From: a virus
IMG/VR virus record: IMGVR_UViG_3300020463_000041
Span: 1 to 42,464 of that record
Strand: one strand, 5' to 3'
Length of the DNA: 42,464 bases
The translations under genes and the position numbers were made by a program. The notes below the pieces were generated by a model. It had not been told where the DNA came from, searched no databases, and saw nothing but the letters and a program-made list of their open reading frames with translations. This document shows positions 1-27,415 of the stretch, piece by piece; the stretch's first letter is position 1; each line of letters opens with the position of its first letter.

Positions 1-416
1 TCTTTTGATAATCCTAGAGCAATTTTTAAACGTAATGAGGTAGAACTCTACTACAACAACTCTAAGAAATTTGAAACCACTGGTGCTGGTGTCACTGTCT
101 TTGGAACCACACAAACTCTGCAGTTAAATGTAAGCGGTGTTTCTACATTTGCTAGTAATGTAGAAGTAACTGCTCAAAAAATAATTATTAATAATACTAA
201 TTCAGAACTTCGATTTGAAAATGGATCTGGAAGTTTTTCAGGAAGTCTGAGGAGGTTAGGAACTTCTTTTGTTGTAGGTTCAGATGATGACTTAAAACTT
301 AGAGCTGCACTTAATGATGATGTAAAAATATCTGATGGTTCTTTTGATAATCCTAGAGCAATTTTTAAACGTAATGAGGTAGAACTCTACTACAACAACT
401 CTAAGAAATTTGAAAC
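1..416 (+). repeat. 77-bp perfect direct repeat, copies 339 bp apart
   Basis: Bases 1-77 recur exactly at 340-416. The spacing of 339 bp is 113 codons, so the repeat stays in frame and encodes the ELYYNNSKKFE module twice. Identity at every synonymous site suggests recent duplication or gene conversion. Confidence 0.9.
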
Positions 417-1440
417 TACACCCACCGGTGTAAACATTACAGATGATCTGAATGTCGCTGGTGTTTCTACATTTGCTGGAAATATAAACGCGAATGGAAA
501 TATTGTTGGTGATAATGCTACAAGTATTTTAGGTATCAACTCTGTTACCGCAATAACATACTTTGGTGATGGTTCACAACTGACTGGCTCTGGTGGTGGT
601 ACCCTTATTCAAGGTATCTCCATTGAAGAAGAGGGAGTTAATGTTGGCACAGCTGGGTCAATTAAGACCATTAACTTCAAAGGTGCAAAGGTAACTGCTG
701 CTTCAGTCAATGCCACTAAAGTTGATGTCACAGTTAATACTGGTCTTAATACAGCAGGAACTTCCGGTTTCAATAACCTATTTGTAACTGGTGTATCTAC
801 ATTTGCTGGAAATATTAATGCAAATGGAGATATTGTTGGTGATAACTCTACAAATATTTCAGGTATCAATTCAGTAACTGCTACCAGTTACTTCGGTAAT
901 GGTGTAAATCTAACCGGTATTGTTACTTCGCTAGTAGCAGGGGCCAATATTTCGATAAGTGGTGCTACCGGCCAAGTCACTATCGCTGGTCTTGCCAATA
1001 CTGCTAATGTTACAGCCAACACCTTGACTGTATCAGGATTCTCTACATTAGCGAGTGCATCTTTTAGTGGTAATGTAACTATCGGCGGAACACTTACTTA
1101 TGAAGATGTCACCAATATTGATTCTGTTGGTCTGATTACTGCAAGAGCTGGAATCAGAATTGGAACAGGTGGTACAGTCGGACCTGTAGGATCTGGTATT
1201 GTCACATACTTTGGTGATGGTTCGCAACTAAGCGGAGTTCAGGGTGGTAAATGGGAAGAAACTGATGTAGGTATCAATACATCTTCAAATGTTGGTATCG
1301 GTACCACAAATCCTGTTCACAAACTAGAAGTTGTTGGTGATACTAATTTAACAGGTAGCCTAAACGTAATAGGTATTACTACCATTAATGGAAATAGCGT
1401 TCCATCCATTGGAATGGTAATTGCCCTCAGTGGCTTCTGA
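1..1440 (+). CDS. Tail-fibre-like protein, 5' end outside window
   Basis: The frame is open from base 1 to the TGA at 1438-1440 (479 residues visible), so the start lies upstream of the window. The protein is repetitive: an ELYYNNSKKFE module occurs at about residues 15-25 and again 113 residues later. A STFAGNI-IVGDN module is repeated 110 residues apart, and YFGDGSQL-type motifs recur. Near residue 353 comes the array-wide cassette SGNVTIGGTLTYEDV, then GIGTTNPVHKLEV. Such proteins are common in T4-like cyanophages as tail-fibre or adhesin shafts; that role is inferred from family resemblance. The next gene follows after a late-promoter gap. Confidence 0.88.
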   Translation, partial: SFDNPRAIFKRNEVELYYNNSKKFETTGAGVTVFGTTQTLQLNVSGVSTFASNVEVTAQKIIINNTNSELRFENGSGSFSGSLRRLGTSFVVGSDDDLKLRAALNDDVKISDGSFDNPRAIFKRNEVELYYNNSKKFETTPTGVNITDDLNVAGVSTFAGNINANGNIVGDNATSILGINSVTAITYFGDGSQLTGSGGGTLIQGISIEEEGVNVGTAGSIKTINFKGAKVTAASVNATKVDVTVNTGLNTAGTSGFNNLFVTGVSTFAGNINANGDIVGDNSTNISGINSVTATSYFGNGVNLTGIVTSLVAGANISISGATGQVTIAGLANTANVTANTLTVSGFSTLASASFSGNVTIGGTLTYEDVTNIDSVGLITARAGIRIGTGGTVGPVGSGIVTYFGDGSQLSGVQGGKWEETDVGINTSSNVGIGTTNPVHKLEVVGDTNLTGSLNVIGITTINGNSVPSIGMVIALSGF

Positions 1441-1455
1441 TAAATAACTAAAAAG
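1439..1455 (+). promoter_or_regulatory. Late-type promoter (TAAATA)
   Basis: GATAAATAACTAAAAAG follows and overlaps the TGA stop of the upstream fibre gene. TAAATA (1441-1446) matches the T4 late promoter core TATAAATA. It lies 20 bp before the next ATG. Confidence 0.75.
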
Positions 1456-1465
1456 TACTAATACA

Positions 1466-1993
1466 ATGGCGGAGTCATTTACAAATCAACTGACAAGGGC
1501 TGCGGGTATTGTAACCTCAAGTAATAGTGGTTCTATTGGTGTTACCACCTCCCTTATTACGGGAGTATCAACTGCTGGGGTTTCAGTTGGCGATATGGTA
1601 AAAACAACATTCTTTAGGGGTGGGTCAAAAGTTTCTGTGATTGGGGCAGGTCAAGTAAATCTTGATAAGACATCAACCAATACTACTGCAAAGACTGGTC
1701 AAACTGTTACATTCATGGGTAAAAACACAGCATTTACCGCCACAACTAAATCTATTCTAGTTGGCGGTACTTTTGCAAATCTAACCAATAATACTATTCA
1801 CATCAATGTAGAAGTTGGAATCGGAAATACTTTCGCCAACATCGCTAACAATATTCCTATTCCTCAAGGGAGTTCGTTTGTTGTAAGTGATGCTGGTAAA
1901 ACTATCTTAAGACCCAATGAAGTAATTAATTTGTATTGTGATACAGCTACAGCAGTAGATTCTAGTTTGAGTATTCTTAGTGGAGTTCAATAA
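1466..1993 (+). CDS. Putative virion structural protein
   Basis: A 175-residue protein starting MAESFTNQLTRAAG. It is rich in Thr, Val, Ser and Asn and has no membrane segment or enzymatic motif, which fits a beta-structured virion component. I recognise the general type from cyanophage structural regions but cannot name it. ATG 1466 lies just behind a late promoter, and the stop TAA shares its last base with the ATG of the next gene (TAATG), implying translational coupling. Confidence 0.85.
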   Translation: MAESFTNQLTRAAGIVTSSNSGSIGVTTSLITGVSTAGVSVGDMVKTTFFRGGSKVSVIGAGQVNLDKTSTNTTAKTGQTVTFMGKNTAFTATTKSILVGGTFANLTNNTIHINVEVGIGNTFANIANNIPIPQGSSFVVSDAGKTILRPNEVINLYCDTATAVDSSLSILSGVQ

Positions 1994-2640
1994 TGGGTCT
2001 TGGTAATAACGGATATATTGGAAGATCTCCTGGAGATTCTTCTGTAATTGTAAGAAGACAGGTATATCAACCAACCGGTGTTCAAACTTCATTTACATTT
2101 GAATCTGGTTATGACAACAATTTCTTTGATGTCTTTATTAACGGCGCAAAGCAGATTAAGTCCATTGACTTTACTGCGGTAGATAATACGACATTCTCTT
2201 TAACAACACCAGCACAAAATGGTGATGTAATTGAAGCGGTGGCATACAAAGCTTTTAATGCCACAAATAGTGGTGTCGGTATTCAATCTGCCGGAGTACG
2301 GATTGGAGAACCTTCAACTCTAAATTTTATTGGTGTAGGAAATACATTTAAAGTTAGGGATGCTGGTGAGGTAATTGATATCTCCATCCAAGGTGGAGGA
2401 GGAGGTGGTGGTGTTGGAACTGCCATTAATTATGAAAACGGAGATTCAAGCCCATTTAGTTACATCAATGCAACAGCATATGTAAATCAGGATATTGTTT
2501 TAGATACAACCACTGCTGGTGCAGATAACTCTTACGTTGTTGTTCAGGAACCACGATTAGTTGTTTCAGTTGGTGCTGCTGTTACGGTGGGACTTGGAAA
2601 AACCATGGTAACTGATCTATATCAACTTGGTGATCTCTAA
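1993..2640 (+). CDS. Tail-fibre-associated structural protein with FxxxDF module
   Basis: A 215-residue protein whose start overlaps the preceding stop by one base. Residues about 35-90 contain a module (FDVFINGAKQ, IDFTA, GDVIEAVAY) often found in phage fibre and baseplate proteins; the same fold signature recurs in the 11257-11697 product. A glycine run encoded at 2394-2414 forms a flexible linker before the C-terminal part. Function beyond structure is unknown. Confidence 0.85.
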   Translation: MGLGNNGYIGRSPGDSSVIVRRQVYQPTGVQTSFTFESGYDNNFFDVFINGAKQIKSIDFTAVDNTTFSLTTPAQNGDVIEAVAYKAFNATNSGVGIQSAGVRIGEPSTLNFIGVGNTFKVRDAGEVIDISIQGGGGGGGVGTAINYENGDSSPFSYINATAYVNQDIVLDTTTAGADNSYVVVQEPRLVVSVGAAVTVGLGKTMVTDLYQLGDL

Positions 2641-2665: not shown

Positions 2666-3745
2666 ATGTCGGCAATTAATGTAAATTCAATTACAGGAAG
2701 GACCGGAACTCATGGTCCTGTGCTGACTGGTGTAACCACGGTAACTGGTGGCACTCTTAACACCGCAGCTTTAAATGTTACTGGTGCAGCTTCATTTTCC
2801 GGTAACGTATCGATTGCTGGCACATTAAGCTATGAAGATGTAACTGACATTGATTCAGTTGGTATTATAACCGCTCGAAGTGGTATTCATTTAGACGATA
2901 GTATTGTTCATCTAGGAGATACTAATACCAAGATAAGATTCCCTGCTGCTGATACTATTACTGCAGAAACTGCTGGTAGTGAAAGACTTCGTGTAACTTC
3001 TGCTGGTCTGGTTGGTATTGGAACTAATAATCCAGTAAGAAAGTTAGACGTAGATGGGACATCAAGATTTACTGATTACATTTATGGAAATTCAACAACT
3101 AACAAGATATATGTTAACGATGATTTAGCACTATCTGCGACTAAAAAATTATACTTTGATACGGGCAGTAACACCTATATTCATGAAGCAGCTGCTGATC
3201 AACTTGCGATAGTAACGGGCGGAACAGAAAGACTTCGTATAACTTCTGGTGGTGAAATTGGTATTGGTAATAATGGATCTTTTGGAATCTTTACAGGTGC
3301 AAATGACAGAAATCTGCTGTTAGGCACTGGCAGTGGTAGTAATGGCATCCAGTTGCATTGTTCAACAACAGGATATGGTGGTATTTACTTTGGTGATAGC
3401 AGTAGTGGCAATGCCAGATATTCTGGATATATAGAATACAAAAATAATGAAAACTTCTTCAGAATTGCCACTTCAGAAACAGAAAGACTTCGTATAACTT
3501 CTGGTGGTGATGTTAATAATTTGGGTAATGTCGGTGTACAAACAACTTATCCAACATCCTCCACACTTGTAGGTGCTGCTAGTTCTTTAATCGGCCTATA
3601 TATTGGTGATGGACACATGCTATTCAGTGATAACTTATCACGTTCGGGTGGATATTATATTCCCAATGGACTGAATGCTCTTAATGCAGGTCCCGTCACT
3701 CTTGGTTCAACAATGACACTTGATGGTGTTTGGGTAATCGTATAG
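2666..3745 (+). CDS. Tail-fibre-like protein with array cassette
   Basis: A 359-residue protein beginning MSAINVNSITGRTG. Residues about 45-123 hold the complete shared cassette (SFSGNVSIAGTLSYEDV, DDSIVHLGDTNTKIRF, ERLRVTSAGLVGIG). ERLRITSGG units recur near residues 190 and 275, so the shaft is a chain of short repeats. The C-terminal 75 residues are unlike the other fibres here and presumably form the tip. The stop TAG lies within the ribosome-binding site of the next gene (TATAGGAGG). The adhesin role is inferred. Confidence 0.88.
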   Translation: MSAINVNSITGRTGTHGPVLTGVTTVTGGTLNTAALNVTGAASFSGNVSIAGTLSYEDVTDIDSVGIITARSGIHLDDSIVHLGDTNTKIRFPAADTITAETAGSERLRVTSAGLVGIGTNNPVRKLDVDGTSRFTDYIYGNSTTNKIYVNDDLALSATKKLYFDTGSNTYIHEAAADQLAIVTGGTERLRITSGGEIGIGNNGSFGIFTGANDRNLLLGTGSGSNGIQLHCSTTGYGGIYFGDSSSGNARYSGYIEYKNNENFFRIATSETERLRITSGGDVNNLGNVGVQTTYPTSSTLVGAASSLIGLYIGDGHMLFSDNLSRSGGYYIPNGLNALNAGPVTLGSTMTLDGVWVIV

Positions 3746-3753
3746 GAGGTATT

Positions 3754-4245
3754 ATGGGAACTCTCAATGTAGCAAACGCAAGTTTTACAACCGCTAAAAT
3801 AGGTAATCTTACACATACTGATGGTGTAACAAAACATACAGATGTTACTTATGATACGAAGGTGGGAGCTACTCTTTTAACGGGTATTACCTGGCACACT
3901 GACAAAAATTCCACTACTCAGACTATTGCAAATCTTTCAGGATATGTTGATTCTAATACTTATGCCGTTGATATAACTCATTATTATTCTCATAACGGAT
4001 CTACAAATCACGGATACTTAGCTGGTTATTTGTTCCAGCAAGGTAAAGTATATAATCAAGACGGTTCGTGGTTTAATCACTATCATTATGATTGGTATTA
4101 TAATGTCATGACAGAACAGCATACAGTTATGTGGGATCCAGCAGGAAATACAAATTTACAAATATACGTATCAACTGCACATAATAGTAGTACTAGTAAT
4201 ACACATGGTTTTTATCTTGCAGGCGTTCATAAAAAAACAGCATAA
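3754..4245 (+). CDS. Putative fibre-tip or adhesin protein, His/Tyr-rich
   Basis: A 163-residue protein starting MGTLNVANASFTTAKIG. I chose ATG 3754 because a perfect AGGAGG (3744-3749) lies at the right spacing; an in-frame TTG at 3730 has no such signal. The middle is rich in His and Tyr (DITHYYSHN, WFNHYHYDWYYN), unusual for this array and suggestive of a metal- or sugar-binding surface, though that is speculation. Only two bases separate it from the next ATG. Confidence 0.82.
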   Translation: MGTLNVANASFTTAKIGNLTHTDGVTKHTDVTYDTKVGATLLTGITWHTDKNSTTQTIANLSGYVDSNTYAVDITHYYSHNGSTNHGYLAGYLFQQGKVYNQDGSWFNHYHYDWYYNVMTEQHTVMWDPAGNTNLQIYVSTAHNSSTSNTHGFYLAGVHKKTA

Positions 4246-4247
4246 TT

Positions 4248-4640
4248 ATGATTAACACAACAACAGATTTTATAATTCCAGCAGCATATGCTCTTACGGG
4301 AAATCTTTCGGGCGCTCTTGTTATCCGTGGAGATATTTCTTATGAAAATATTGAATGGAATACTGGTATAGTAACTACTACATTACCAACAAAACAAGAG
4401 GTTCTTAATAAAGCACAAGAACTTTATGATGGTGAAGCAAGTAATAAATTGAGAATTCATCGCGATAGATTGATGTCTAATTGTGATTGGACTCAAGGTG
4501 CTGATAGTCCATTATCAGATTCAAAGAAAACTGAATGGGCAACTTATCGTCAAGCATTAAGAGATCTACCAGCAAATTCTTCACCAACGCTAGATGGACC
4601 ATTCATTAAAGATGTTGTCTGGCCAACAGAACCATCATAA
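4248..4640 (+). CDS. Tail assembly chaperone-like protein (Phage_TAC type), copy 1
   Basis: A 130-residue protein. The C-terminal half carries the family pattern RIHRDRLMSNCDWTQ, then a TYRQALRDLP motif, as in phage tail assembly chaperone proteins that accompany fibre genes. It ends in WPTEPS, exactly like its neighbour at 4664-5029, so the two are paralogues that have diverged at the N-terminus. In related phages such proteins help fold or assemble fibres; here the partner is probably one of the adjacent fibres. Confidence 0.85.
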   Translation: MINTTTDFIIPAAYALTGNLSGALVIRGDISYENIEWNTGIVTTTLPTKQEVLNKAQELYDGEASNKLRIHRDRLMSNCDWTQGADSPLSDSKKTEWATYRQALRDLPANSSPTLDGPFIKDVVWPTEPS

Positions 4641-4650
4641 ATAATACTAA
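4635..4650 (+). promoter_or_regulatory. Late-type promoter (CATAAATA)
   Basis: TAAATA at 4638-4643 includes the TAA stop of the upstream gene. It lies 20 bp before ATG 4664. The downstream part (ATACTAAC) is a weaker match to the array consensus. Confidence 0.55.
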
Positions 4651-4663
4651 CATTCCTCCAATT

Positions 4664-5029
4664 ATGAAATACGATATCCCGGCAGCATTACAATTACTTA
4701 CACCAGGAGCCGAATGGGTGCTTCGTGGCAGTGAGTATTCTGGTTTGGAGTGGCTTAAAGGAAACGGTCACGATAAACCAACTGAAGACGAATTGAATAC
4801 AAAGATTGCTGAACTTGATGGTGTAGAAGCAATGAAACTTCTACGTGAAGAAAGAGATCGTAGAATTGCAAAGACTGATTGGAGAGCTTCATCAGATTTG
4901 ACAATTTCGGATGCATGGAAAACTTATCGTCAGGCATTAAGAGATCTTCCTGCATCTGCAACTCCGACTCTTGATTCTGCTTATAATTTGGATCTGACTT
5001 CTGTAACCTGGCCCACGGAACCTTCTTGA
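4664..5029 (+). CDS. Tail assembly chaperone-like protein (Phage_TAC type), copy 2
   Basis: A 121-residue paralogue of the preceding gene. It has LREERDRRIAKTDWRASSD and TYRQALRDLP, and the same WPTEPS ending. The first 50 residues differ, matching the idea that the N-terminal part recognises a specific fibre while the C-terminal part is generic. The next gene starts two bases after the stop. Confidence 0.85.
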   Translation: MKYDIPAALQLLTPGAEWVLRGSEYSGLEWLKGNGHDKPTEDELNTKIAELDGVEAMKLLREERDRRIAKTDWRASSDLTISDAWKTYRQALRDLPASATPTLDSAYNLDLTSVTWPTEPS

Positions 5030-5030
5030 T

Positions 5031-5516
5031 ATGGCATCTGAATTAAGAGTAGACAGAATAATTCCTGTTGATGGAGTGCCATCTGGTGGTGGAGGAGGAA
5101 TTATTCAGATGAAGCATTCTGTTGTTGAAACACAAGTTGTTGTCAATACTAATACATGGACAAGCACTGGAAATAGTGTGACAATAACACCAAAAAGTGC
5201 ATCAAATTATTTTTACGTATTTTTTGAGGGTCAGTTCACCATGGACGTTAATGGTGCGCAGGGTTTTGGATATAATATTTACAAAGATGGTTCTGCTGTA
5301 ACAACTAGTACAAATGATGGTGGAAATCCTTATGATAAGTATAAAGACGAAACAAGGATTTATACTAGAAAATGTAAAATGTATTTTGCACAATGTGGTA
5401 CAACAAGTGCTGTGACATTTGATGTTAGATTTAGACCGTATAACGCTCAAAATACTATTTCCTGTTATTCAGGCGAAACACAACAAAATCTGATTGTAAT
5501 GGAGGTGTCAGGATAA
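5031..5516 (+). CDS. Small fibre/adhesin protein, MASELRVDRI family
   Basis: A 161-residue protein with an N-terminal ELRVDRIIPVDGVPSGGGGGIIQ segment followed by a beta-rich domain ending LIVMEVSG. It is a clear paralogue of the next gene, which has ELRTNRIVPKDGLPAGAFGGIIQ and ends ITVMELSG. This N-terminal peptide is common in marine phage fibre proteins and probably attaches the domain to the tail. The stop overlaps the next ATG by one base. Confidence 0.85.
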   Translation: MASELRVDRIIPVDGVPSGGGGGIIQMKHSVVETQVVVNTNTWTSTGNSVTITPKSASNYFYVFFEGQFTMDVNGAQGFGYNIYKDGSAVTTSTNDGGNPYDKYKDETRIYTRKCKMYFAQCGTTSAVTFDVRFRPYNAQNTISCYSGETQQNLIVMEVSG

Positions 5517-6046
5517 TGTCAGAATTAAGAACAAATCGGATTGTCCCTAAAGACGGACTACCTGCTGGTGCTTTTGGTGGTATTATACAGGTAAAACAAA
5601 GTGTATTAACAACATCTGCTGCGATTGCAACAGGACATAATTTTACGGATTCAGGTCTTGCTGTTACAATTACTCCAACAAGATCGGATAGTCGAATTTT
5701 AGTAATGAGTGACATTACTACTGGAATATCTAATAGTTATGGAGGTTGTCTTCGATTAATAAGAGGTTCAACACACATTTACAAAGGAGATACTGCTGGA
5801 AATAGACCGATAGTCACAAAATGGTTTTGTGACTACAAGAATGCTACTGACACTTATTCAACATATTTTCCACACTTCCAATTTATTGATAATCCTTCCA
5901 CTACAAGTGCGGTTACATATAAAATACAATTAGCTGGTTACTCAAGCACTATTGTGTATGTAAATCGAAGTCATGCTCATCAAAATTATACAGAATATGA
6001 TGGATCTCAAGCATCATCTATCACAGTAATGGAATTATCAGGATAA
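5516..6046 (+). CDS. Small fibre/adhesin protein, paralogue of previous gene
   Basis: A 176-residue protein sharing the attachment peptide and overall plan of the preceding protein. The central domain has diverged (CLRLIRGSTHIYKGD, TTSAVTYKIQLAGY), consistent with tandem duplication followed by change in the exposed domain. It ends inside a late promoter (GGATAAATAA). Confidence 0.85.
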   Translation: MSELRTNRIVPKDGLPAGAFGGIIQVKQSVLTTSAAIATGHNFTDSGLAVTITPTRSDSRILVMSDITTGISNSYGGCLRLIRGSTHIYKGDTAGNRPIVTKWFCDYKNATDTYSTYFPHFQFIDNPSTTSAVTYKIQLAGYSSTIVYVNRSHAHQNYTEYDGSQASSITVMELSG

Positions 6047-6058
6047 ATAACTAAAAAG
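6042..6058 (+). promoter_or_regulatory. Late-type promoter (TAAATA)
   Basis: GATAAATAACTAAAAAG, with the upstream TAA stop embedded in TAAATA (6044-6049); 8 bp before ATG 6066. Confidence 0.75.
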
Positions 6059-6065
6059 TATCGGT

Positions 6066-7325
6066 ATGTCGAAGATACAAGTAAATGAGATAGTCAATCA
6101 CTTTGACAACGGTGCTCCTGATTGCCCCAAAGGTTTTACTGTATCTTCTGGTATTTCAACATTTACCGGTGCAATTGATGCAAATGGTAGTTTAGATGTT
6201 GATGGTCATACAAATTTAGATAACGTTAATATATCTGGTGTTGTTACTGCTACTAGTTTTGTTGGAAATGTAACAGGAAACGTTATTGGAAACGTTACTG
6301 GTAATGTTACTGGAAATGCTGATTCAGCGACTACGGCAACCACGGCAACCACAGCAACTAACGCACAAGGTCTTACTGGTTCTCCAAGTATTTCTGTTGC
6401 AAGTCTTGTCGCAACTGGTAATGTAACTATTGGTGGAACACTTACATACGATGATGTAACTAATATTGATTCAGTAGGTGTTATAACAGCAAAATCTGGT
6501 ATTCATGTAACTAGTGGTTCGGTTGGTATCGGAACTGATGCACCTGAGAGTTCTATTAAACTTGATGTAAGAGGTGCTGTAATAGGTAACAGTTTTGGTA
6601 GCAGTCTTTTAGTAACACCCTCAAATGCCCTTACACCTTCTTGGAAAGCTGTATCTTCAGGTGGTGATCCAAGTTCTGTTCCATCTGGATTGACTTCAGT
6701 TTCTTCTAATGCTGTACTGAGTCAAGGAACTTCTGAGCAAATATTTTTAGACTTGGGGTCTTCAGTAACAACAGTTACTTTTGATTTTAATGCTGTATTA
6801 GATACTAATTTCTATTATCCTGGATGGAAAGTATCAAATGATGGTTCAAGTTGGACTAATAAGGGTGCAATAAACACAGATGGTAATGGTGTAATCACCA
6901 TAACAAATGGTAGTGCATTTAGATATGTCACATTACGTAGTTTGACGAACTATAATAGTGGTACTATTGCCACCGTTGAGAGCACTACTACTTCTGCTGC
7001 AGCAGCTCAACCAGATACAAACACAAAGATAAACTTCCCCACTTCTGATACAGTTGCGGTTGAAACAGGTGGTACAGAAAGACTTCGTATAACTTCTGCT
7101 GGTTCGGTTGGAATCTCATCAGCAACACCAAAAACAGATGTTGATATCTCACAGAAGACAGGTGCTGTAGCACTACCACAAGGAACCACGGCACAAAGAC
7201 CGTCTGGTTCGGCACCATACATAAGGAAGAATACCACCAATAATGCCTTGGAGTATTTTGATGGGACATCATGGGTAGAGATAATCACGGATTATTTCCC
7301 CACTGGTTCTACTATTTTAGGTTGA
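6066..7325 (+). CDS. Tail-fibre-like protein with short tandem repeats
   Basis: A 419-residue protein starting MSKIQVNEIVNHFDNGAPD. Residues about 66-80 are a GNVTGNVIGNVTGNVTGN repeat, followed by a TATTATTATN repeat. The array cassette follows (GNVTIGGTLTYDDV) and an ERLRITSAGSVGI unit lies near residue 338. A discoidin-like stretch (DLGSSVTTVTFDF, WKVSNDGSSW, FRYVTLRS) at about residues 225-300 may bind carbohydrate. The C-terminus (LPQGTTAQRP, YFDGTSWVEI) is a motif common at phage fibre tips. Confidence 0.88.
   Translation: MSKIQVNEIVNHFDNGAPDCPKGFTVSSGISTFTGAIDANGSLDVDGHTNLDNVNISGVVTATSFVGNVTGNVIGNVTGNVTGNADSATTATTATTATNAQGLTGSPSISVASLVATGNVTIGGTLTYDDVTNIDSVGVITAKSGIHVTSGSVGIGTDAPESSIKLDVRGAVIGNSFGSSLLVTPSNALTPSWKAVSSGGDPSSVPSGLTSVSSNAVLSQGTSEQIFLDLGSSVTTVTFDFNAVLDTNFYYPGWKVSNDGSSWTNKGAINTDGNGVITITNGSAFRYVTLRSLTNYNSGTIATVESTTTSAAAAQPDTNTKINFPTSDTVAVETGGTERLRITSAGSVGISSATPKTDVDISQKTGAVALPQGTTAQRPSGSAPYIRKNTTNNALEYFDGTSWVEIITDYFPTGSTILG
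6261..6363 (+). repeat. In-gene tandem repeats (12-bp GNVT and 9-bp TAT units)
   Basis: Units encoding GNVT or GNVI repeat from about 6261 to 6318. ACGGCAACC-type units then repeat to about 6362. Both keep frame, so slippage would change shaft length without breaking the gene. Confidence 0.75.
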
Positions 7326-7336
7326 GGTAAGAAATA

Positions 7337-11233: not shown

Positions 11234-11248
11234 TAAATAACTAAAAAG
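11232..11248 (+). promoter_or_regulatory. Late-type promoter (TAAATA)
   Basis: GATAAATAACTAAAAAG, overlapping the TGA stop of the giant adhesin; TAAATA at 11234-11239; 9 bp before ATG 11257. Confidence 0.75.
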
Positions 11249-11256
11249 GTTTTACA

Positions 11257-11697
11257 ATGGCGATTGGAAATCCCATTACTAGTGAAAATAATTTTAGGAT
11301 AAACAAGTTTGGTCCATTTCAAGGACAAACATTGTTCACAATTAATAATGGATACCAATTAGGTAAGATTTCTGTCTTCAGAAATGGTATACGACTCACA
11401 GACGGTATTGATTTTACAGCTTCTGATGGTTCTACTGTCACATTTAATACTGGCTGTAATCTCGGTGATGATATAGTTATTGAAGTTCTTGACACGTTCA
11501 GTGTTGCTGATGTTTCTGGAAGTGGTGGTGGGGCCACTGGAAGTAGTGGAGATGAAGTATTTCATGAAAATGAACAAGTGGTGACAGCAAATTATACGTT
11601 AAGTAATGCTAAAAGTGCTATGAGTGTTGGTCCTGTGACTTTGAACGCAGGAGTGGTAGTTACCATCCCTGCAAATCGAAGATGGGTAGTTCTCTAG
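11257..11697 (+). CDS. Fibre-associated protein with FRNGIRL/DFTA module
   Basis: A 146-residue protein. Residues about 22-85 carry the module also seen in the 1993-2640 product (TLFTINNGY, ISVFRNGIRL, IDFTASDGSTVTF, GDDIVIEVLD). A Gly/Ser linker follows, then a short beta-domain ending VTIPANRRWVVL, typical of proteins that cap or connect fibres. The gene sits directly upstream of a fibre gene, with a TAGGAG ribosome-binding site at the junction. Confidence 0.83.
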   Translation: MAIGNPITSENNFRINKFGPFQGQTLFTINNGYQLGKISVFRNGIRLTDGIDFTASDGSTVTFNTGCNLGDDIVIEVLDTFSVADVSGSGGGATGSSGDEVFHENEQVVTANYTLSNAKSAMSVGPVTLNAGVVVTIPANRRWVVL

Positions 11698-11706
11698 GAG
11701 TAAGTC

Positions 11707-13359: not shown

Positions 13360-13368
13360 TTCCACCCC

Positions 13369-13376
13369 TATAAATA
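13369..13376 (+). promoter_or_regulatory. Perfect T4-type late promoter TATAAATA
   Basis: TATAAATA is the exact T4 late consensus, unlike the GATAAATA form used elsewhere in the array. It sits in a 55-bp gap and would start a structured leader before ATG 13415. Confidence 0.85.
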
Positions 13377-13383
13377 TTTAAGC

Positions 13384-14929: not shown

Positions 14930-14940
14930 ATAACTAAAAA
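14924..14940 (+). promoter_or_regulatory. Late-type promoter (CCTAAATA)
   Basis: CCTAAATAACTAAAAAG; TAAATA at 14926-14931 includes the upstream TAA stop; 8 bp before ATG 14949. Confidence 0.7.
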
Positions 14941-14948
14941 GAGTTCTG

Positions 14949-17018: not shown

Positions 17019-17031
17019 ATAACTAAAAAAG
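17014..17031 (+). promoter_or_regulatory. Late-type promoter (AATAAATA)
   Basis: GAATAAATAACTAAAAAA; TAAATA at 17016-17021 contains the upstream stop; 8 bp before ATG 17039. Confidence 0.72.
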
Positions 17032-17038
17032 TACTCTG

Positions 17039-20907: not shown

Positions 20908-20929
20908 TTACAGATTTAGGAGATTAATT

Positions 20930-21106
20930 ATGTCTATTAATTACAAACTACATAAAAACTTTTTTGGTGAATTAGTTGCAATTATTCGTACTGACGATAC
21001 CAACATTGTTTATAATATTCCTTTTTGTGAAGGAAATAGTGATTACGATGAATACCTTAAATGGGTCGCTGAAGGTAACACACCTCTTCCTCCCGATGAT
21101 GACTAA
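20930..21106 (+). CDS. Small fibre-assembly-like protein (58 aa)
   Basis: A 58-residue protein starting MSINYKLHKNFFGELVAIIR and ending YLKWVAEGNTPLPPDDD. The ending matches the YLxWxAEGNTPxPxD tail of small proteins found next to phage fibre genes, where they are thought to aid fibre assembly. ATG 20930 has a clear AGGAG at 20918-20922. It sits between two fibre genes, supporting that role. Confidence 0.82.
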   Translation: MSINYKLHKNFFGELVAIIRTDDTNIVYNIPFCEGNSDYDEYLKWVAEGNTPLPPDDD

Positions 21107-21122
21107 TAAATAACTAAAAAAG
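21104..21122 (+). promoter_or_regulatory. Late-type promoter (AATAAATA)
   Basis: TAATAAATAACTAAAAAAG follows the upstream TAA stop; TAAATA at 21107-21112; 9 bp before ATG 21132. Confidence 0.72.
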
Positions 21123-21131
21123 TATAAATCC

Positions 21132-22868
21132 ATGGGATTGAGTTTAAGAGGTACCACCTCAGGCGCTATTGATATCAATCCACCAGCAGTGGCTGGTGAT
21201 AATGCCATTACTCTTCCTGCAAGTAATGGTAGTGCTAATCAGTTTTTTAAAAATAGTGGGACGGCGGGTATTGTAACCTACTCCTCCATGGTGGAGACTT
21301 CTGGTGGATTGGTTGGTATCGGGACCGAAAATCCACTAAATGGTTTAGATGTTAATCAGAGTGAGGGAAGATTAAGAGTTAATAGATTTAGTCATCTGCT
21401 CATGCAGAATAAAAATGACTCAACAACTGATTATTGGGGAATTTCTGCAAGAAATGGTGGAGAACTTGATATTGGATATGGAACTCCTGACGGTAATAGT
21501 CTTATAGGTGGAGATAAAGTTACTATAACTTCTGCTGGTAAGATTGGTATCGGAGTTGCTTCTCCAGATGAAATGCTGGAGATCACCTCTAGTGGTACTG
21601 GTTCTCAAATGCAGTTCAGAGATACCTCAACTGGAAGTGCTGCTGGTGATGGATTTAGAGTTGGATATAATGGTTCTGGTGGACAATTATGGAACTTTGA
21701 AAATACTTTTATTAGATTTGCTACAAATAACGCAGAAAGACTTCGTATAACTTCTGCTGGTTTGGTTGGTATCGGACTCACTAATCCAGATAGAGTACTT
21801 CACTTAGCTCAGGCAAATAGTACAGCATATAGTGGAACTGACGCTTTTGATAAGGATTATCATGTATTAAAACTCAATAACACCACAGATGATGGAACGG
21901 TGGGAATGCAATTCCTTATTGGTTCTGATGGTGAAGCAGCAATTACTGCCAGTGAAGTGGCAGGTAGTGCGACTGATTTAATCTTTTCAACGAGAAGTGG
22001 TGGTAATAAAACTGAAAAACTTCGTATAAAATCAGCTGGTAATATTGGTATAGGAACCAATAATCCAAGTGAATTATTACATATGTTTAGTAGTAGTAAT
22101 CTTACTTTAAAAATTCAAACAACAGGTGTATCCTCACCCTCTACTATTGAATTCAAGGGTCCTTCTAATGGTAGGATTGATTTTACTCCTGATGATAGTG
22201 GATCTGCTTCTGGTCGAATAGTCTATGTTCATAGTGATGACAGTATGCAATTCAGTACAAAGGCATCTGGGGGTAATATAACAGAAAGACTTCGTATCTC
22301 CTCAGCAGGTGCATTTGGTTTAGCTGGTGCAAACTATGGAAATGCGGGTCAGGTCATAAAATCAAATGGGAGTAGTGCTGCTCCTACATGGCAAAATCTA
22401 TATTCATATTTCTTTTATGGACAACAAGATACACAAACTAACATCGCTACTGCAACATACATAAATCTCAAAAACTTAGGAACTAGAAGCGTGGCTTTGG
22501 GTGATGCAAGTATAGCATCATGGGATGAATCTAATGGGGAACTCACGATTGGATCGAGTGGAGCAGGATACTGGTTTCTATCCTGCGCTGCTGGTATTGA
22601 TGATATTCAGTCAGCTGATTTTATTCAAGTTGTTATCAGTAAAAATGGAACTGTTAATAGTTTAGGCACTAATGTAAGCACTTATGGTAGATCTTGGAAT
22701 GGTGTTACTGCCAACCAAGTTGTTGTTGATAACACCAGTTGTATCACAGAGTTAGCTGCTAACGATGTAGTTCGCTTTTATGTTTATCATAACGAAGGCA
22801 CTACTGAACCAACTGAACCAAATAGATGTTTTGCAATGGGATATCGGATTGGAGGAACCTCAGGATAA
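21132..22868 (+). CDS. Tail-fibre-like protein
   Basis: A 578-residue protein starting MGLSLRGTTSGAIDINPPAVAGDN. It lacks the TLTYEDV part of the cassette but has many ERLRITSAGLVGIG-type repeats. Residues about 215-300 form a module (HLAQANSTAYSGTD, YHVLKLNN, GSDGEAAITASE) shared with the 24782-25846 protein. The last 140 residues are a distinct domain (NIATATYINLKNLG, WFLSCAAGID, RFYVYHNEG, CFAMGYRIGG), possibly C1q/TNF-like. The adhesin role is inferred from array context. Confidence 0.88.
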   Translation: MGLSLRGTTSGAIDINPPAVAGDNAITLPASNGSANQFFKNSGTAGIVTYSSMVETSGGLVGIGTENPLNGLDVNQSEGRLRVNRFSHLLMQNKNDSTTDYWGISARNGGELDIGYGTPDGNSLIGGDKVTITSAGKIGIGVASPDEMLEITSSGTGSQMQFRDTSTGSAAGDGFRVGYNGSGGQLWNFENTFIRFATNNAERLRITSAGLVGIGLTNPDRVLHLAQANSTAYSGTDAFDKDYHVLKLNNTTDDGTVGMQFLIGSDGEAAITASEVAGSATDLIFSTRSGGNKTEKLRIKSAGNIGIGTNNPSELLHMFSSSNLTLKIQTTGVSSPSTIEFKGPSNGRIDFTPDDSGSASGRIVYVHSDDSMQFSTKASGGNITERLRISSAGAFGLAGANYGNAGQVIKSNGSSAAPTWQNLYSYFFYGQQDTQTNIATATYINLKNLGTRSVALGDASIASWDESNGELTIGSSGAGYWFLSCAAGIDDIQSADFIQVVISKNGTVNSLGTNVSTYGRSWNGVTANQVVVDNTSCITELAANDVVRFYVYHNEGTTEPTEPNRCFAMGYRIGGTSG

Positions 22869-22876
22869 CTTGTATC

Positions 22877-22894
22877 TAATAAATAATTAAAAAC
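22877..22894 (+). promoter_or_regulatory. Late-type promoter (AATAAATA)
   Basis: CTAATAAATAATTAAAAA; TAAATA at 22880-22885, in a 31-bp gap, 14 bp before ATG 22900. Confidence 0.7.
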
Positions 22895-22899
22895 ATCAG

Positions 22900-24459
22900 A
22901 TGTCAAATATTCTTGCTAACAATATAAACCCAAGAAGTGGCAATAAGATTACCATTGGTAATGTTAATACCACTGTGGCGATTGCAGGAACTGCGACATA
23001 TGAAGACGTAACGAACATTGATTCAGTTGGTCTTATAACTGCTCGAAGCGGTCTCAGTATAACCAGTGGAGACTTAACACTTCCAGATGCAATAGTACAT
23101 AGTGGAGATACAAATACAAAGATTAGATTCCCTGCTGCTGATACGATTACTGCAGAAACTGGTGGATCAGAAAGAGTTCGGGTAAAGTCTAATGGTAATG
23201 TTGGTATCGGAACTGATAATCCTACTTCAAAGTTATATGTTCAAGGTACGATCTACGCAACAACTAATGTCGATGTACCAAGTGGAGATATCTTCTGTGG
23301 TGGAAATGCAGCAAGTGGATCGGAATCGGGTATACGGATGCGATCTGCTGGTTTTATCAGTGCCAGTAGAAATAGTGGTTTCATATGGAAAGGATATACT
23401 ACAGGAACTAGTGATGCAACTTCAATAATCAATTCTAATGGTCAAGCACAGTTTACACAGTTATTGGTAGGAACTAATAACTCTAGATACATTTACCTTG
23501 GAACGGCACCAGTACAGGTCTACGGCACTGGTGATAGAATGATGAGCTTGTTGTATACGCAAGCAAATAGTTCGGGTCCTATGTTGAACTTTACCAAGGG
23601 TAGGTCAACAAACGACAATGCTGGAACTATTGTAAATTCTGGTGATCTTTTGGGAGCAATAAACTTCATCGGAGATGATGGAAATGATTTCCACCAAGCA
23701 GGAGGAGAAATTAGATGTAAGGTTGATGGTACTCCTGGTTCAAATGATATGCCGGGTAGACTCGAATTTCTCACAACATCTGATGGTGCTCAGTTCCCAA
23801 CTGAAAGACTTCGTATAACTAGTGGTGGTGATGTTAGGTTAGCATGGAATACTGGTACGTTTCTGGGTGAATATTATGATGCTGACTATTACATGGGTCT
23901 CTCTTTTGGGGCAAGTAGTAGAGAACTGTATATTGATAATAGATCAAATGATACTAGAGCAGATATAGTTTTTAGAACAATAGTAGGACAATCAACACCA
24001 ACAGAAAAACTTCGTATAACTTCTGATGGGTATGTGACAACACCTCAGCAACCATCTTTTTCATGTTACAAAAATGGTCACTTTAACTTTACCTCTAATA
24101 CAAATACTACTATTAAACCTTGGACTGAGCAACATGACACTCATTCCGACTTTAATGCAACCACGGGCGTATTTACTGCTCCCGTAGCAGGAAAGTATTA
24201 CTTCTACATAAGTGTTATGCAGCAGCGGCAAGGTAATGGTGACTTCCAATTGAAAATTTATAAAAATGGAGCTTTGTATGTAAATAGTAATGATATGAGC
24301 GATGCCGCTACTACAACTTTCCAACAAACAACAATTAATGCTGTTATGAGTTTAGCAGCAAATGATACTGCTTCTTTTGTAACGCGCAATTCAACTGATA
24401 CATCATCATTCCTTTACAGTGGTCAATATACACATTGTGGTGGATATTTAATCGGATAA
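22900..24459 (+). CDS. Tail-fibre-like protein with C1q-like knob
   Basis: A 519-residue protein starting MSNILANNINPRSGNKITIG. The cassette lies at about residues 25-110 (AGTATYEDVTNIDSVGLI, SGDTNTKIRFPAAD, ERVRVKSNGNVGIG). ERLRITSGGDV and KLRITSDGYV units follow. Residues about 417-519 carry a C1q/TNF-like signature: FNATTGVFTAPVAGKYYFYI, FQLKIYKNG, VMSLAANDTASF, GGYLIG at the C-terminus. C1q-type knobs are trimeric, which fits a trimeric fibre tip. Confidence 0.88.
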   Translation: MSNILANNINPRSGNKITIGNVNTTVAIAGTATYEDVTNIDSVGLITARSGLSITSGDLTLPDAIVHSGDTNTKIRFPAADTITAETGGSERVRVKSNGNVGIGTDNPTSKLYVQGTIYATTNVDVPSGDIFCGGNAASGSESGIRMRSAGFISASRNSGFIWKGYTTGTSDATSIINSNGQAQFTQLLVGTNNSRYIYLGTAPVQVYGTGDRMMSLLYTQANSSGPMLNFTKGRSTNDNAGTIVNSGDLLGAINFIGDDGNDFHQAGGEIRCKVDGTPGSNDMPGRLEFLTTSDGAQFPTERLRITSGGDVRLAWNTGTFLGEYYDADYYMGLSFGASSRELYIDNRSNDTRADIVFRTIVGQSTPTEKLRITSDGYVTTPQQPSFSCYKNGHFNFTSNTNTTIKPWTEQHDTHSDFNATTGVFTAPVAGKYYFYISVMQQRQGNGDFQLKIYKNGALYVNSNDMSDAATTTFQQTTINAVMSLAANDTASFVTRNSTDTSSFLYSGQYTHCGGYLIG

Positions 24460-24464
24460 TTTAT

Positions 24465-24479
24465 AATAAATACTCAAAA
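24465..24479 (+). promoter_or_regulatory. Late-type promoter (AATAAATA)
   Basis: ATAATAAATACTCAA; TAAATA at 24467-24472, 25 bp before ATG 24497. The downstream ACTAAAAA part of the array consensus is lost. Confidence 0.6.
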
Positions 24480-24496
24480 TTACTATATTTAATCAA

Positions 24497-24757
24497 ATGG
24501 CAGATTATACAGTTACATTAACGGATACTGAGAACACAGCAATGGAATATATTGCTGCTGATGTTGATTATTGGATTACCAACGCAGCAACAAATCGTGC
24601 TCGGATTTCTATCGAAGAAATTATAAACTTAAACACCGCACATTGTAATGAGAACTCTATTGCGATTGCAGTTGGTAGAGATGCACAGGTGGCACAAGCA
24701 TTAGAACTTGGTGTCATCGATAAGGCAGCAGACAGAGTAGAACCAGAAAGACCATAG
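24497..24757 (+). CDS. Small conserved phage protein in fibre region
   Basis: An 86-residue, probably helical protein starting MADYTVTLTDTENTAMEYIAADVDYWITNAATNRARISIEE. I recognise the pattern TDTE-x-AMEYIA with a W-x-x-NAxxNRARI segment from small proteins near marine phage fibre genes; the function is not known to me. It has no membrane segment and no cysteine pairs. It is flanked by late promoters on both sides, so it is expressed as its own short unit. Confidence 0.82.
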   Translation: MADYTVTLTDTENTAMEYIAADVDYWITNAATNRARISIEEIINLNTAHCNENSIAIAVGRDAQVAQALELGVIDKAADRVEPERP

Positions 24758-24773
24758 ATAAATAACTAAAAAA
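24757..24773 (+). promoter_or_regulatory. Late-type promoter (TAAATA)
   Basis: GATAAATAACTAAAAAA begins at the last base of the upstream stop; TAAATA at 24759-24764; 8 bp before ATG 24782. Confidence 0.73.
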
Positions 24774-24781
24774 GTATCAAT

Positions 24782-25846
24782 ATGTCTAAGGTAAGAGCTG
24801 AGGAATATACTGATAAGAGTGGAACCGGAGCTCCTAACTTTTCCAAGGGCATTGTCGTCTCTGTTGGATCTTCGGTGGGTATTGGTTCCACTTTTCCAGA
24901 TAGAACATTACATGTAGCTCAGGCAAATAGTACTGCATATAGTTCAACTGACTTTGATCAAAAATATCATGTGCTTAAACTTCAAAACTTTACTGATGAC
25001 AAGTCAGTAGGTCTTCAGTTTAAGATTGGAACTAATGGTGAAGCTGCTATCACCGCACAAGAGTCGAGTAATGGTGAAACTCAACTCATGTTCGGAACCA
25101 GAGGGAGTGGTAATCGAGCTGAGAGAGTTCGTATTACTTCTGATGGCCGCCTTGGAATTGGAACTGACAATCCCGTAAATCTTACAGTTCATGATGTAGG
25201 TGTGACTACATTTAGAATATCAACCGCGGGTGTTCTAGCATATGACCATACATTCAATGGAACGACTTACACGATAGCGAATAATAATGGTGGAGCTGGA
25301 ATTCCAATTATCTTTGGATCAAAAACTTCTGGTGGAGAATCTGCAAGATTCAATGCATCTGGTAATCTAGCATTCCCAAATGGTCAAGGTGTTGATTTCA
25401 GTGCTACAGCAGGAGCTAATGCAACATCTAGTCTCCTAGATGACTATGAAGAAGGCACATGGACTCCTGTATTTTCGGGTGCAACATCAGCTGGAACATA
25501 CACTTATGGATCACAGGTCGGTAGATATACCAAAGTCGGTAATATGGTTCACGCACACTTTAAACTTGAGAATATCGCTACAGGATCAGCTGGAACTGGA
25601 AATATAGAAATTAGTGGTTTACCCTATGTTTCTGATTTGGAACAAGTATCTGGTAATATGGTGCTTGATAATTTTAATCTTCCAACAGGAACTAGTAATT
25701 TGACATTTAGAATTGCTAATGATCAATCAAAATTCACCATTGTCATGACGATTGACAATTTACCCGATCAGACTCTTGCAGTTACAGACAAGGTTGATAA
25801 TTCTGCTGATATTCAGGGTACCATCTCTTACCTCACTGACTCTTAA
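24782..25846 (+). CDS. Tail-fibre-like protein with DYEEGTWTP knob
   Basis: A 354-residue protein starting MSKVRAEEYTDKSGTGAPNFSKG. Residues about 40-120 hold the HVAQANSTAYSSTD / YHVLKLQN / GTNGEAAITAQE module shared with the 21132-22868 product, ending in RVRITSDGRLGIG. At about residue 218 LDDYEEGTWTPVFSG opens the C-terminal domain (GRYTKVGNMVHAHFKL, GNIEISGLP), a common marine phage fibre end that binds an unknown receptor. It lacks the TLTYEDV cassette. Confidence 0.88.
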   Translation: MSKVRAEEYTDKSGTGAPNFSKGIVVSVGSSVGIGSTFPDRTLHVAQANSTAYSSTDFDQKYHVLKLQNFTDDKSVGLQFKIGTNGEAAITAQESSNGETQLMFGTRGSGNRAERVRITSDGRLGIGTDNPVNLTVHDVGVTTFRISTAGVLAYDHTFNGTTYTIANNNGGAGIPIIFGSKTSGGESARFNASGNLAFPNGQGVDFSATAGANATSSLLDDYEEGTWTPVFSGATSAGTYTYGSQVGRYTKVGNMVHAHFKLENIATGSAGTGNIEISGLPYVSDLEQVSGNMVLDNFNLPTGTSNLTFRIANDQSKFTIVMTIDNLPDQTLAVTDKVDNSADIQGTISYLTDS

Positions 25847-25862
25847 ATAAATAACTAAAAAC
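25846..25862 (+). promoter_or_regulatory. Late-type promoter (AATAAATA)
   Basis: AATAAATAACTAAAAAC, starting at the upstream stop; TAAATA at 25848-25853; 6 bp before ATG 25868. Confidence 0.72.
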
Positions 25863-25867
25863 ATCAG

Positions 25868-27415
25868 ATGTCTAGAATTAGAGCTGACAGATACACCAAT
25901 AGATTAGGAACCGGTGCACCAACATTTTCAAACGGTGTTAATATTATCGGAAATGTTGGAGTAGGAACAACTGTCCCTACCTCTAATCTAACAGTCAAGG
26001 GTGATATGAATGTCACTGGCACAGTATCTGTTGGTGGTACCCTCACTTATGAGGATGTAACTAATATTGATTCCGTTGGTATTATAACTGCTCAATCTGG
26101 CATTCATATAGATGATAGTATTGTTCATCTAGGAGATACTAATACCAAGATAAGATTCCCTGCTGCTGATACTATCACAGTAGAAACTGTTGGAACAGAA
26201 AGACTTCGTATAACTTCTGCTGGTGATATGGGGTTGGGAGTTACCGATGCAACTATATTAGATGATTCTGGATTCAGAGAGTTAGTGATCGGTGGTGCCA
26301 CTGAGGGTGGTGCTATTCATTTACAAGATGCAGATGGAAATGTTAAATTTGGTGCATTTACATCAGATGCTTCTAATGCAGCGTTCATTAGAACAATAAC
26401 AAATCATCCAATTGTATTCAGAACAAATAATACAGAAAGACTTCGTATAACTACAAATGCCGAATCCGAAGTTGAATTATATTGTGGAGCAACTGATGGA
26501 AATTATGCAACAGTTAGAGGAAAATATAGTAGTTCAAATCAATATAATAGAAGTGAAATAAGATTTGGTGTTGAGGCTAATGCTACTGGAAGTGGATTCT
26601 TAGCACTTGCAACCGGAACTAATTCAGCAACAGAAAGACTTCGTATAGCATCTGATGGTAAAGTTGGTATAAATGAAACTTCTCCCTCTAGAGCAATAAG
26701 TATCAATGGTAGTATAAATCTTGCTTCTGGAAGCAGGATTGAGAGTTATTCATCTGGTGGTAACCTAATCATCCAAGGGGGAAGTACATATCCTGGTGGT
26801 CATATCAGGATGTATGGTGGTAGTGGTGATGATATGATCACCTTTAATACCAGTGGTGGGTCTGCTAGTTCAATAGAAAGAATGCGTATAACTTCTAGTG
26901 GTTTAGTTGGAGTTAATGATAGCACAACTGGTTGGGCAGAATCCTTCCAAGTAACATCTTCTACAGCTTATAATCAATATGGTATTGCTATTAAAATTCA
27001 AAGTAATAGTGGATACCTTTTGCGTTTTGGAAATGGAACTAATAATCCATGTGGAAGCGTTAGTAGTAGCGGTGGTAACTCTACTTCTTACAATACATCT
27101 TGGTCTGATAGTAGACGTAAGAAAAATATTGAAACTTGGAATGAAGAAGTATTACCACACTTCAAGTCTTTAGAACCTAAGAAATTTAATTTCATACATG
27201 AAGATGATGGAACAGTAAAGACAAAAGGTTATACGGCACAAGATAATGTTGATAAATTCCCTGAAGCATACCCATTACTTGATGATACCGATATTGATGA
27301 AAAGAGATATATGTTCAATCCATCTGGTATGGTTATCTATTTGATGAAGGCACTTCAAGAAGAAATTGCAAAACGCGAAGCAATTGAACAGCGCTTAACA
27401 GACGCAGGTCTCTGA
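25868..27415 (+). CDS. Tail-fibre-like protein with S74 intramolecular chaperone
   Basis: A 515-residue protein starting MSRIRADRYTNRLGTGAPTFSNG. The cassette is at about 48-130 (VGGTLTYEDV, DDSIVHLGDTNTKIRF, ERLRITSAGDMGLG); three more ERLRI or ERMRI units follow. The last 100 residues are a Peptidase_S74 chaperone: SDSRRKKNIETW at about 413, FKSLEPKKFNFIHEDD, KGYTAQDNV, then a helix ending ALQEEIAKREAIEQRL. In this family the domain trimerises the fibre and then cuts itself off at a Ser near SDxRxKxNI. It is the only S74 domain in the window and the last fibre gene of the array. Confidence 0.92.
   Translation: MSRIRADRYTNRLGTGAPTFSNGVNIIGNVGVGTTVPTSNLTVKGDMNVTGTVSVGGTLTYEDVTNIDSVGIITAQSGIHIDDSIVHLGDTNTKIRFPAADTITVETVGTERLRITSAGDMGLGVTDATILDDSGFRELVIGGATEGGAIHLQDADGNVKFGAFTSDASNAAFIRTITNHPIVFRTNNTERLRITTNAESEVELYCGATDGNYATVRGKYSSSNQYNRSEIRFGVEANATGSGFLALATGTNSATERLRIASDGKVGINETSPSRAISINGSINLASGSRIESYSSGGNLIIQGGSTYPGGHIRMYGGSGDDMITFNTSGGSASSIERMRITSSGLVGVNDSTTGWAESFQVTSSTAYNQYGIAIKIQSNSGYLLRFGNGTNNPCGSVSSSGGNSTSYNTSWSDSRRKKNIETWNEEVLPHFKSLEPKKFNFIHEDDGTVKTKGYTAQDNVDKFPEAYPLLDDTDIDEKRYMFNPSGMVIYLMKALQEEIAKREAIEQRLTDAGL

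Follow-up and report, generated by a model that had tools for sequence, protein, structure and literature searches.

The window studied here is a whole IMG/VR virus record, IMGVR_UViG_3300020463_000041 (42,464 bases), and is the end of a host-recognition cluster in a T4-like cyanophage, with its first gene truncated by the contig start. T4-like cyanophages (Kyanoviridae) were the nearest relatives by BLAST, with S-B05, RN05-S, RB11-B, and ACG-2014e sharing stretches at 75-90% identity. Positions 1-27415 carry about 23 genes on a single strand, in open reading frames whose coordinates agreed with those of a preliminary description made from the sequence alone. At least 12 of these genes are fiber-like, where that description had counted at least ten. 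This is very probably a modular fiber array, in which shafts and tips are exchanged by homologous recombination at short shared DNA islands.

Exchange of shafts and tips within the fiber array

The fiber genes appear to follow one plan: a late-promoter-like element, an N-terminal plug (N-plug), in most of them a TLTYEDV half-cassette, capped beta-helix shaft segments each bounded by an ERLRITSAG-VGIG-NP repeat, and a tip, each stop codon being overlapped or closely followed by the promoter element of the next gene. Genes are named here by their start positions, and the main fiber genes are also given as slots A to J. By motif families, the half-cassette (families D8 and D14) occurred in exactly the eight genes first named (1-1440, 2666, 6066, 11707, 14949, 17039, 22900, and 25868), and 13706 carried the second half of the cassette (families D2/D3). 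D14 also matched a ninth place, at 8129 within 7337, but the sequence there reads GTLGFDGV and was rejected as spurious. All-against-all BLASTP grouped the cassette genes with 21132 and 24782 (2666 versus 25868, E=2e-54; 21132 versus 24782, E=1e-41), and these E-values place the paralogy of the fiber genes far beyond chance; 21132 and 24782 join the family solely via the second-half repeat. A hidden Markov model (HMM) of that second half (ERLRITSAG-x-VGIG-x-x-NP) found 31 copies in window proteins, most of them 70-95 residues apart within the shaft, and the tip begins after the last of these ERLR repeats.

The array was compared with full contigs of relatives, mostly metagenomic (sisters, designated by S numbers), and with isolate genomes. 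Shafts and tips were replaced in sister contigs and isolates between flanks that are 90-99% identical. From the left anchors to the right flank the array is shuffled: S1, S5, S7, and S9 have the same slots in other orders and with other contents, and S10 joins position 21081 straight to 27420. Close sisters kept the promoter and N-plug at 90-100% identity while tips alternated, and within single genes identity profiles fell from 100% to values typical of unrelated DNA before recovering to 100%. Against S5, 13370-13960 and 14413-15449 were ~98-100% identical, with the slot D stretch between them (13960-14413) replaced (~40%) and both joins located in ERLR repeats. Chimeras combined the slot F N-plug (100%) with the slot E (14949) tip (91%) in S1, and the slot E N-plug (99%) with the slot A tip (97%) in S5. 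Slot G and S1 had the N-plug (97%) and tip (95% at the nucleotide level) in common around a replaced middle, 21325-22282. Relative to S9, slot I had its internal shaft exchanged between 25147 and 25436, and slot J had the same N-plug and half-cassette with a tip that differed from 26107 onward. The isolates S-TIM5 and S-TIM61 are 99.9% identical, yet ~1.2 kb was replaced within one fiber gene; the S-TIM5 lineage is recorded outside Kyanoviridae.

Tip classes were counted in 59 proteins whose N-plug matched (≥60% identical) that of one of the eleven window slots examined. Of these slots, eight (2666, 6066, 11707, 13706, 14949, 17039, 21132, and 25868) carried three to six tip classes, five classes stood on more than one slot, and the same tips (68-97% amino acid identity) were found on different N-plugs; in this census the 22900 N-plug occurred in the window only. 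The preliminary description had suggested a parts library for changing host range. The array agrees with a parts library, with tips swapped between orthologous slots, the same tip on different slots, and gene order rearranged, and the sister loci are not syntenic, slowly diverging orthologues free of tip exchange. RN05-S and RB11-B, both recorded from Synechococcus MW02, had different tips in several slots; in principle, tip exchange might alter host range. As a separate observation, a shaft stretch of RN05-S (L241) at 18114-18287 matched another RB11-B slot at 87%, a hint that exchange may also occur between paralogous slots.

Junctions were mapped from conserved blocks of ≥85% identity, each junction within a fiber gene being counted once, and compared with random placement within the same genes. 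Between the window and its sisters, 18 of 27 intragenic junctions fell in the half-cassette or an ERLR repeat (5.1 ± 2.0 expected); the maximum in 20,000 random draws was 14, and 18 was never reached. Among isolates, junctions lay in these motifs in 5 of 8 cases for RN05-S versus RB11-B (0.9 expected, p=2e-4) and in 6 of 11 for S-TIM5 versus S-TIM61/S-TIM66 (1.5 expected, p=1e-3). A cruder comparison of every block end with DNA self-similarity had shown only about twofold enrichment, having overlooked many ERLR copies and taken in 7337; it was replaced by the protein-HMM map and within-gene null. The cassette, which had first been taken as the constant part, is a joint of exchange: the promoter and N-plug stay, and the cassette and ERLRITSAG repeats hold the joins.

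The promoter-like element may provide a second joint. ATAAATAACTAAAAA or a one-base variant precedes most fiber genes, overlapping or directly following the upstream stop, with the ATG 20-27 nt downstream; it contains NATAAATA, which we take to be the T4/cyanophage late-promoter consensus. Conserved blocks had 63 unique left edges, of which seven lay ≤6 nt from the element (0.39 expected); no right edge lay so close. The element would form the left edge of many constant units, and the variable part often seems to end there. Given the junction placement and these left edges, the constant unit consists of promoter and N-plug and the variable unit of shaft and tip as far as the stop. In the isolate S-B05 (209 kb; MK799832.1) there are only ten copies of the 14-nt core at ≤1 mismatch, located at 141940-149621 and 189116-192930, with none in a reversed control. 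The next gene lies within fiber clusters for eight of the ten, and several of these genes are annotated as fiber, endosialidase, or carbohydrate-binding. The ATAAATAACTAAAAA element, which was absent from ACG-2014e, seems largely restricted to fiber-cluster genes. TGATAAATAACTAA also supplies stop codons in all three frames.

Homologous recombination would be the agent of these exchanges. A phage recombinase acting during co-infection, perhaps between paralogues, would cross over in the ERLR and cassette islands. Such a swap would keep the reading frame and whole beta-helix domains and so yield an assembled fiber with a new receptor-binding tip, and repeated crossing-over would hold the island DNA identical. 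N-plugs would attach the fibers to the baseplate and tips would act as adhesins, the mixture of tips diversifying adsorption.

Codon conservation in the ERLRITS repeat and alternative explanations

ERLRITS is encoded almost without exception by the codons GAA AGA CTT CGT ATA ACT TCT. In the window, the second Arg was CGT in 21 of 22 copies, against a CGT share of 9% among Arg codons in the rest of these genes (P~7e-21), the first Arg was AGA in 18 of 18, Leu was CTT in 16 of 16, and Ile was ATA in 16 of 19; the TLTYEDV codons varied freely in the ordinary way. The same spelling prevailed in S-TIM5 and S-TIM54 (second Arg CGT 9/9 and Ile ATA 9/9 in each), in S-SM2 (CGT 6/6), and in 410 copies from all fetched loci. 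For an unbiased test, copies matching the ERLRITS pattern used for fetching were excluded. The remaining 247 had CGT at 79% versus a 17% background, CTT at 92% versus 30%, and ATA at 76% versus 28%; the P value for CGT, about 3e-99, treats related copies as independent, as do the other codon P values, and effect size is the better guide. A 62-nt repeat consensus had DNA matches in 21 phage records, one of them a Pelagibacter phage, many at several places (twelve in S-TIM5).

Excess synonymous identity between copies of different loci peaked at positions +1 to +7 and faded on both sides; it was 0.17 and about zero at the strongly conserved Gly +11 and Ile +12. Simple protein conservation was rejected as the cause, since these residues and TLTYEDV show little or no such freeze. 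Codon optimality was rejected as well, the two Arg of one motif being frozen to different codons two positions apart, and a Cre-type site, considered for a 10-nt resemblance, was discarded for want of an inverted second arm. The ERLRITS repeat probably serves as a crossover island. More tentatively, we raise the possibility that this island of about 27 nt (GAAAGACTTCGTATAACTTCTGnTGGT) works as an exchange currency at the DNA level across unrelated cyanophage lineages, its synonymous sites constant because fiber genes cross over there; if so, these phages would share an open standard by which their lineages trade adhesin parts.

Several points count against exchange by recombination at these islands. 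The swaps are read from comparison of arrays. Nine of the 27 window-sister junctions missed the motifs, most of them lying in N-plugs or where tips begin, and the enrichment of the other 18 may be somewhat inflated by alignment ends creeping into conserved motifs. The left edges at the promoter may partly just mark the end of a variable tip and the start of the next constant gene. Slot I (24782) had one tip class only in all relatives found. Nor do all cyanophages have the DNA island: the ERLR codons of S-B05 are mixed, and ERLR copies are absent from the ACG-2014e region.

An alternative that we consider unlikely, but worth weighing, is that a nucleic-acid function holds the ERLRITS DNA constant, with recombination there secondary; the DNA might be a site for a recombinase or nuclease, encode an RNA structure, or make translation pause while trimers fold co-translationally. 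Position-specific codon choice over about nine codons, with opposite Arg codons two positions apart, is what a defined DNA or RNA word would give, and the DNA is present in lineages as distinct as Kyanoviridae and Aurunvirus. However, the synonymous excess fades gradually without a sharp end, as expected for exchange tracts, the junctions are located in the ERLR and cassette motifs, no inverted partner or inversions were seen, and Rfam found no known RNA family in the window.

It is very improbable that the chimeras arose in assembly of metagenomic contigs at shared repeats. Most sisters are metagenome contigs joined at repeats, where short-read assemblers fail, but the same chimeric arrays came from independent metagenomes (S1 and S3, 99.9% over 20 kb; S6 and S16, 99.9% over 9.6 kb; S7 and L106, 98.5% over 5 kb), and isolate genomes show the same pattern. 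Some other phages diversify adhesins by invertible segments or diversity-generating retroelements, and we see even less room for such an active switching device in place of general recombination. The array had no minus-strand match to sisters, a single 39-nt self-complementary stretch was its only inverted repeat pair, and the differences are block replacements, not adenine-specific substitutions. No reverse transcriptase was found among the window reading frames scanned with Pfam, the rest of the genome lying outside the record, where a distant one is possible. We give almost no credence to fast divergence of shafts and tips under diversifying selection with repeats conserved for folding: the repeats are indeed conserved as protein with variable segments between them, but identity drops from ~100% to the unrelated-DNA level within one repeat and then returns, S-TIM5 and S-TIM61 differ by block replacement in otherwise near-identical DNA, and shared tips stand on different N-plugs.

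Features of the array and its flank

The features of the window are collected in Table 1.

Table 1. Coordinates of array genes, repeats, and flanking features in the window
Feature	Position	Strand	Remarks
Late-promoter-like ATAAATAACTAAAAA	1440..25861	+	1440, 6043, 11233, 14926, 17015, 21106, 22879, 24758, 25847
NATAAATA only	2640, 4637, 13370, 24466	+	
ERLRITSAG-VGIG-NP repeats in fiber genes, putative crossover joint 1	2975..26935	+	near-invariant DNA GAAAGACTTCGTATAACTTCT; for example 2975-3040, 3218-3283, 3476-3538, 7068-7133, 11938-12000, 12244-12309, 12697-12762, 13907-13969, 14159-14221, 14405-14470, 15663-15728, 15945-16007, 16191-16256, 16428-16496, 21297-21335, 21726-21791, 22005-22070, 22275-22343, 23161-23229, 23797-23859, 23995-24060, 25112-25180, 26192-26254, 26627-26689, 26870-26935
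Fiber gene truncated by contig start	1..1440	+	TLTYEDV 1087; C-terminal part 92-98% amino acid identity in sisters
Two conserved genes, left anchors	1466..2640	+	87-98% amino acid identity; order kept in sister contigs
Left anchor 1	1466-1993	+	phrog_26609
Left anchor 2	1993-2640	+	N-terminal part like tail-fiber phrog_18345
Fiber slot A	2666..3745	+	N-plug amino acids 1-38; TLSYEDV 2819; ERLR 2975-3040; shaft; AGPVT-type tip, block from 3485/3525 conserved in sisters; six tip classes among relatives
Five small genes	3757..6046	+	array members; 5031 and 5516 mutual paralogues
Phage_tail_APC (tail-fiber assembly chaperone) paralogues	4248-4640, 4664-5029	+	Pfam
Fiber slot B	6066..7325	+	N-plug; TLTYDDV 6435; inserted domain of ~150 amino acids; ERLR 7068-7133; FDGTSWVEI tip
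LamG x3 + DUF7483 protein	7337..11233	+	1298 amino acids; cassette-free; Pfam
Small fiber-like gene	11257..11697	+	90-96% amino acid identity in close sisters; position before slot C kept
Fiber slot C	11707..13359	+	TLTYEDV 11785; four ERLR repeats; tip jelly-roll-like (a guess at the fold from sequence); relatives with four tip classes
Small conserved gene	13415..13702	+	phrog_6228; inside 98%-identical block 13370-13960 common to S5
Fiber slot D	13706..14929	+	half-cassette; three ERLR repeats; DYEEG tip from ~14470
Fiber slot E	14949..17018	+	150-amino-acid N-plug (phrog_28668; identity to sisters 96-99%); TLTYEDV 15510 within cassette 15466-15728; four ERLR repeats; relatives with four tip classes; tip from ~16476
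Fiber slot F	17039..19741	+	N-plug; TLTYEDV 17282; LamG tip
NLVINGDM-type tip protein	19741..20907	+	short N-plug; no ERLR repeat; divergent tip
Fiber slot G	21132..22868	+	five ERLR/VGIG repeats; PDB match to MAT fiber Bd2133 (8OND)
Fiber slot H	22900..24459	+	TATYEDV 22987; C1q tip
Fiber slot I	24782..25846	+	DYEEG tip
Fiber slot J	25868..27415	+	TLTYEDV 26036; ERLR repeats; S74 tip
Right flank	27420..34654	.	collinear at 90-93% nucleotide identity in S9 and S10, unlike the shuffled array
Direct repeat CAgAATtACTCACCTtCAAAcGTCCcCTaTAGTGTAACca	33543-42120		eleven copies of ~40 nt spaced 630-1420 bases: 33543, 34474, 35895, 36794, 37497, 38131, 39022, 39729, 40369, 41194, 42081

The preliminary description had listed tips of at least six kinds. 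Pfam identified three Laminin_G_3 domains and DUF7483 in 7337, Laminin_G_3 in 17039, C1q in 22900, and Peptidase_S74 in 25868, and NLVINGDM (19741) and DYEEG (13706 and 24782) were recognized by sequence; the SPRY domain ascribed to 7337 and the carbohydrate-binding module ascribed to 17039 had no Pfam match at E≤0.01. Further kinds were AGPVT-like (2666) and FDGTSWVEI (6066), together with the tips of 11707, 14949, and 21132. The claim that adhesin capacity exceeds that of T4 holds by gene count, although multi-fiber clusters are usual in cyanomyoviruses, the RN05-S and RB11-B arrays being comparable.

The first gene contains internal repeats (451-575 versus 788-903, within 451-911), and its length varies among sisters. 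In 6066, the inserted domain (about 6550-7000) lies between the cassette halves and is mostly missing in S5; it looked discoidin-like by eye, which Pfam did not confirm. The LamG/DUF7483 protein is mosaic between sisters despite the absence of a cassette. In the CAgAATtACTCACCTtCAAAcGTCCcCTaTAGTGTAACca repeat, CTCACCT and AAA-x-GTC are invariant and several copies lie shortly before an ATG; it may act as an early-type promoter or as another kind of regulatory element in the small-gene region.

Comparison with known fibers and host-recognition loci

The shafts appear to resemble mosaic adhesive trimer (MAT) fibers at the sequence level, with the beta-helix capping-loop motif present. Gene 21132 matched the Bdellovibrio MAT fiber Bd2133 (8OND; phmmer E=1.5e-9). 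An AlphaFold monomer of 13706 had a low mean pLDDT (56), as a single chain of a presumed trimer was modeled; Foldseek ranked 8OML and 8OND first (E 2e-4 to 6e-4, TM about 0.12), a weak likeness between a model and these structures. The excerpted text of PMC10769870 (PDB 8OND, 8OML) describes trimeric beta-helix domains edged by a capping loop with the consensus V-G-G/N followed by conserved P and L, and this loop corresponds to the VGIGTxNPxxxL half of the window repeat. Because the motif sits at domain edges, a crossover in the repeat would exchange whole domains. The same excerpts report tips that include S74 and TNF-like folds and speak of tip swapping. MAT fibers are described there as surface proteins of bacteria that share an invariant N-terminal domain (~130 amino acids) after a signal peptide, whereas the window has virion genes with slot-specific N-plugs of 20-150 amino acids that, judged from the sequences, start MSxI-type without a hydrophobic leader. 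A codon-frozen joint is not mentioned in those excerpts.

The locus itself is of a known kind. As far as the excerpts of PMC7029224 go, the host recognition cluster of cyano- and pelagimyophages is a variable region among tail genes, with a mean of 34 kb in cyanomyophages. Like the metaviromic islands of PMC3909814, also consulted in part, it holds several tail fibers and C1q, lectin, and carbohydrate-binding genes and is under-recruited in metaviromes. The window matches the cyanomyophage cluster by its fiber region following a VrlC gene, as judged from its relatives. In RN05-S, a VrlC-like gene is followed by fiber genes collinear with the window order 1466-1993-2640; VrlC itself lies outside the window record, and the sister S4 has baseplate hub/lysozyme and large fiber genes upstream. 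Downstream of the array, the window and RN05-S have small genes; gp14, the neck gene that delimits the cyanomyophage cluster at its opposite end, was not seen in the stretches read. Variability is given at gene or domain level in the excerpts of PMC7029224 and PMC3909814, whereas here the exchange unit, the joints, and the frozen DNA are resolved. These are the new elements, the kind of locus and C-terminal swapping being already known; no account of the repeat as a crossover joint or of its frozen codons came to light, and a literature search for the peptide motifs, of partial coverage, returned no paper.

Marine cyanophage fibers are known to be hypervariable, but the way in which functional variants arise with the trimeric fiber left intact has been vague. 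The exchange unit, two joints, and joint DNA can now be named, with a signature of codons fixed beyond protein need. If exchange maintains this signature, it could be used as a marker to find where phage lineages trade adhesins and would directly test whether short intragenic homology islands guide phage mosaicism. Modular shuffling also explains why homology-based annotation of these fibers is unreliable.

T-even phages reportedly swap adhesins by recombination between conserved motifs (so the title of a 1998 J Mol Biol paper). Crossover there is said to occur at short conserved DNA motifs in or next to the fiber genes and to switch adhesin specificity, and the window is alike in its junction placement. 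The T-even case concerns a single distal fiber locus, whereas the window has a dozen slots, with shaft repeats and promoter elements common to all slots and to other phage lineages. Domain shuffling of phage receptor-binding proteins, in the excerpts of PMC10684548, has recently exchanged non-homologous C-termini behind near-identical N-termini, as in the window; those excerpts describe no shared DNA joint, whereas the window junctions are tied to a specific repeat.

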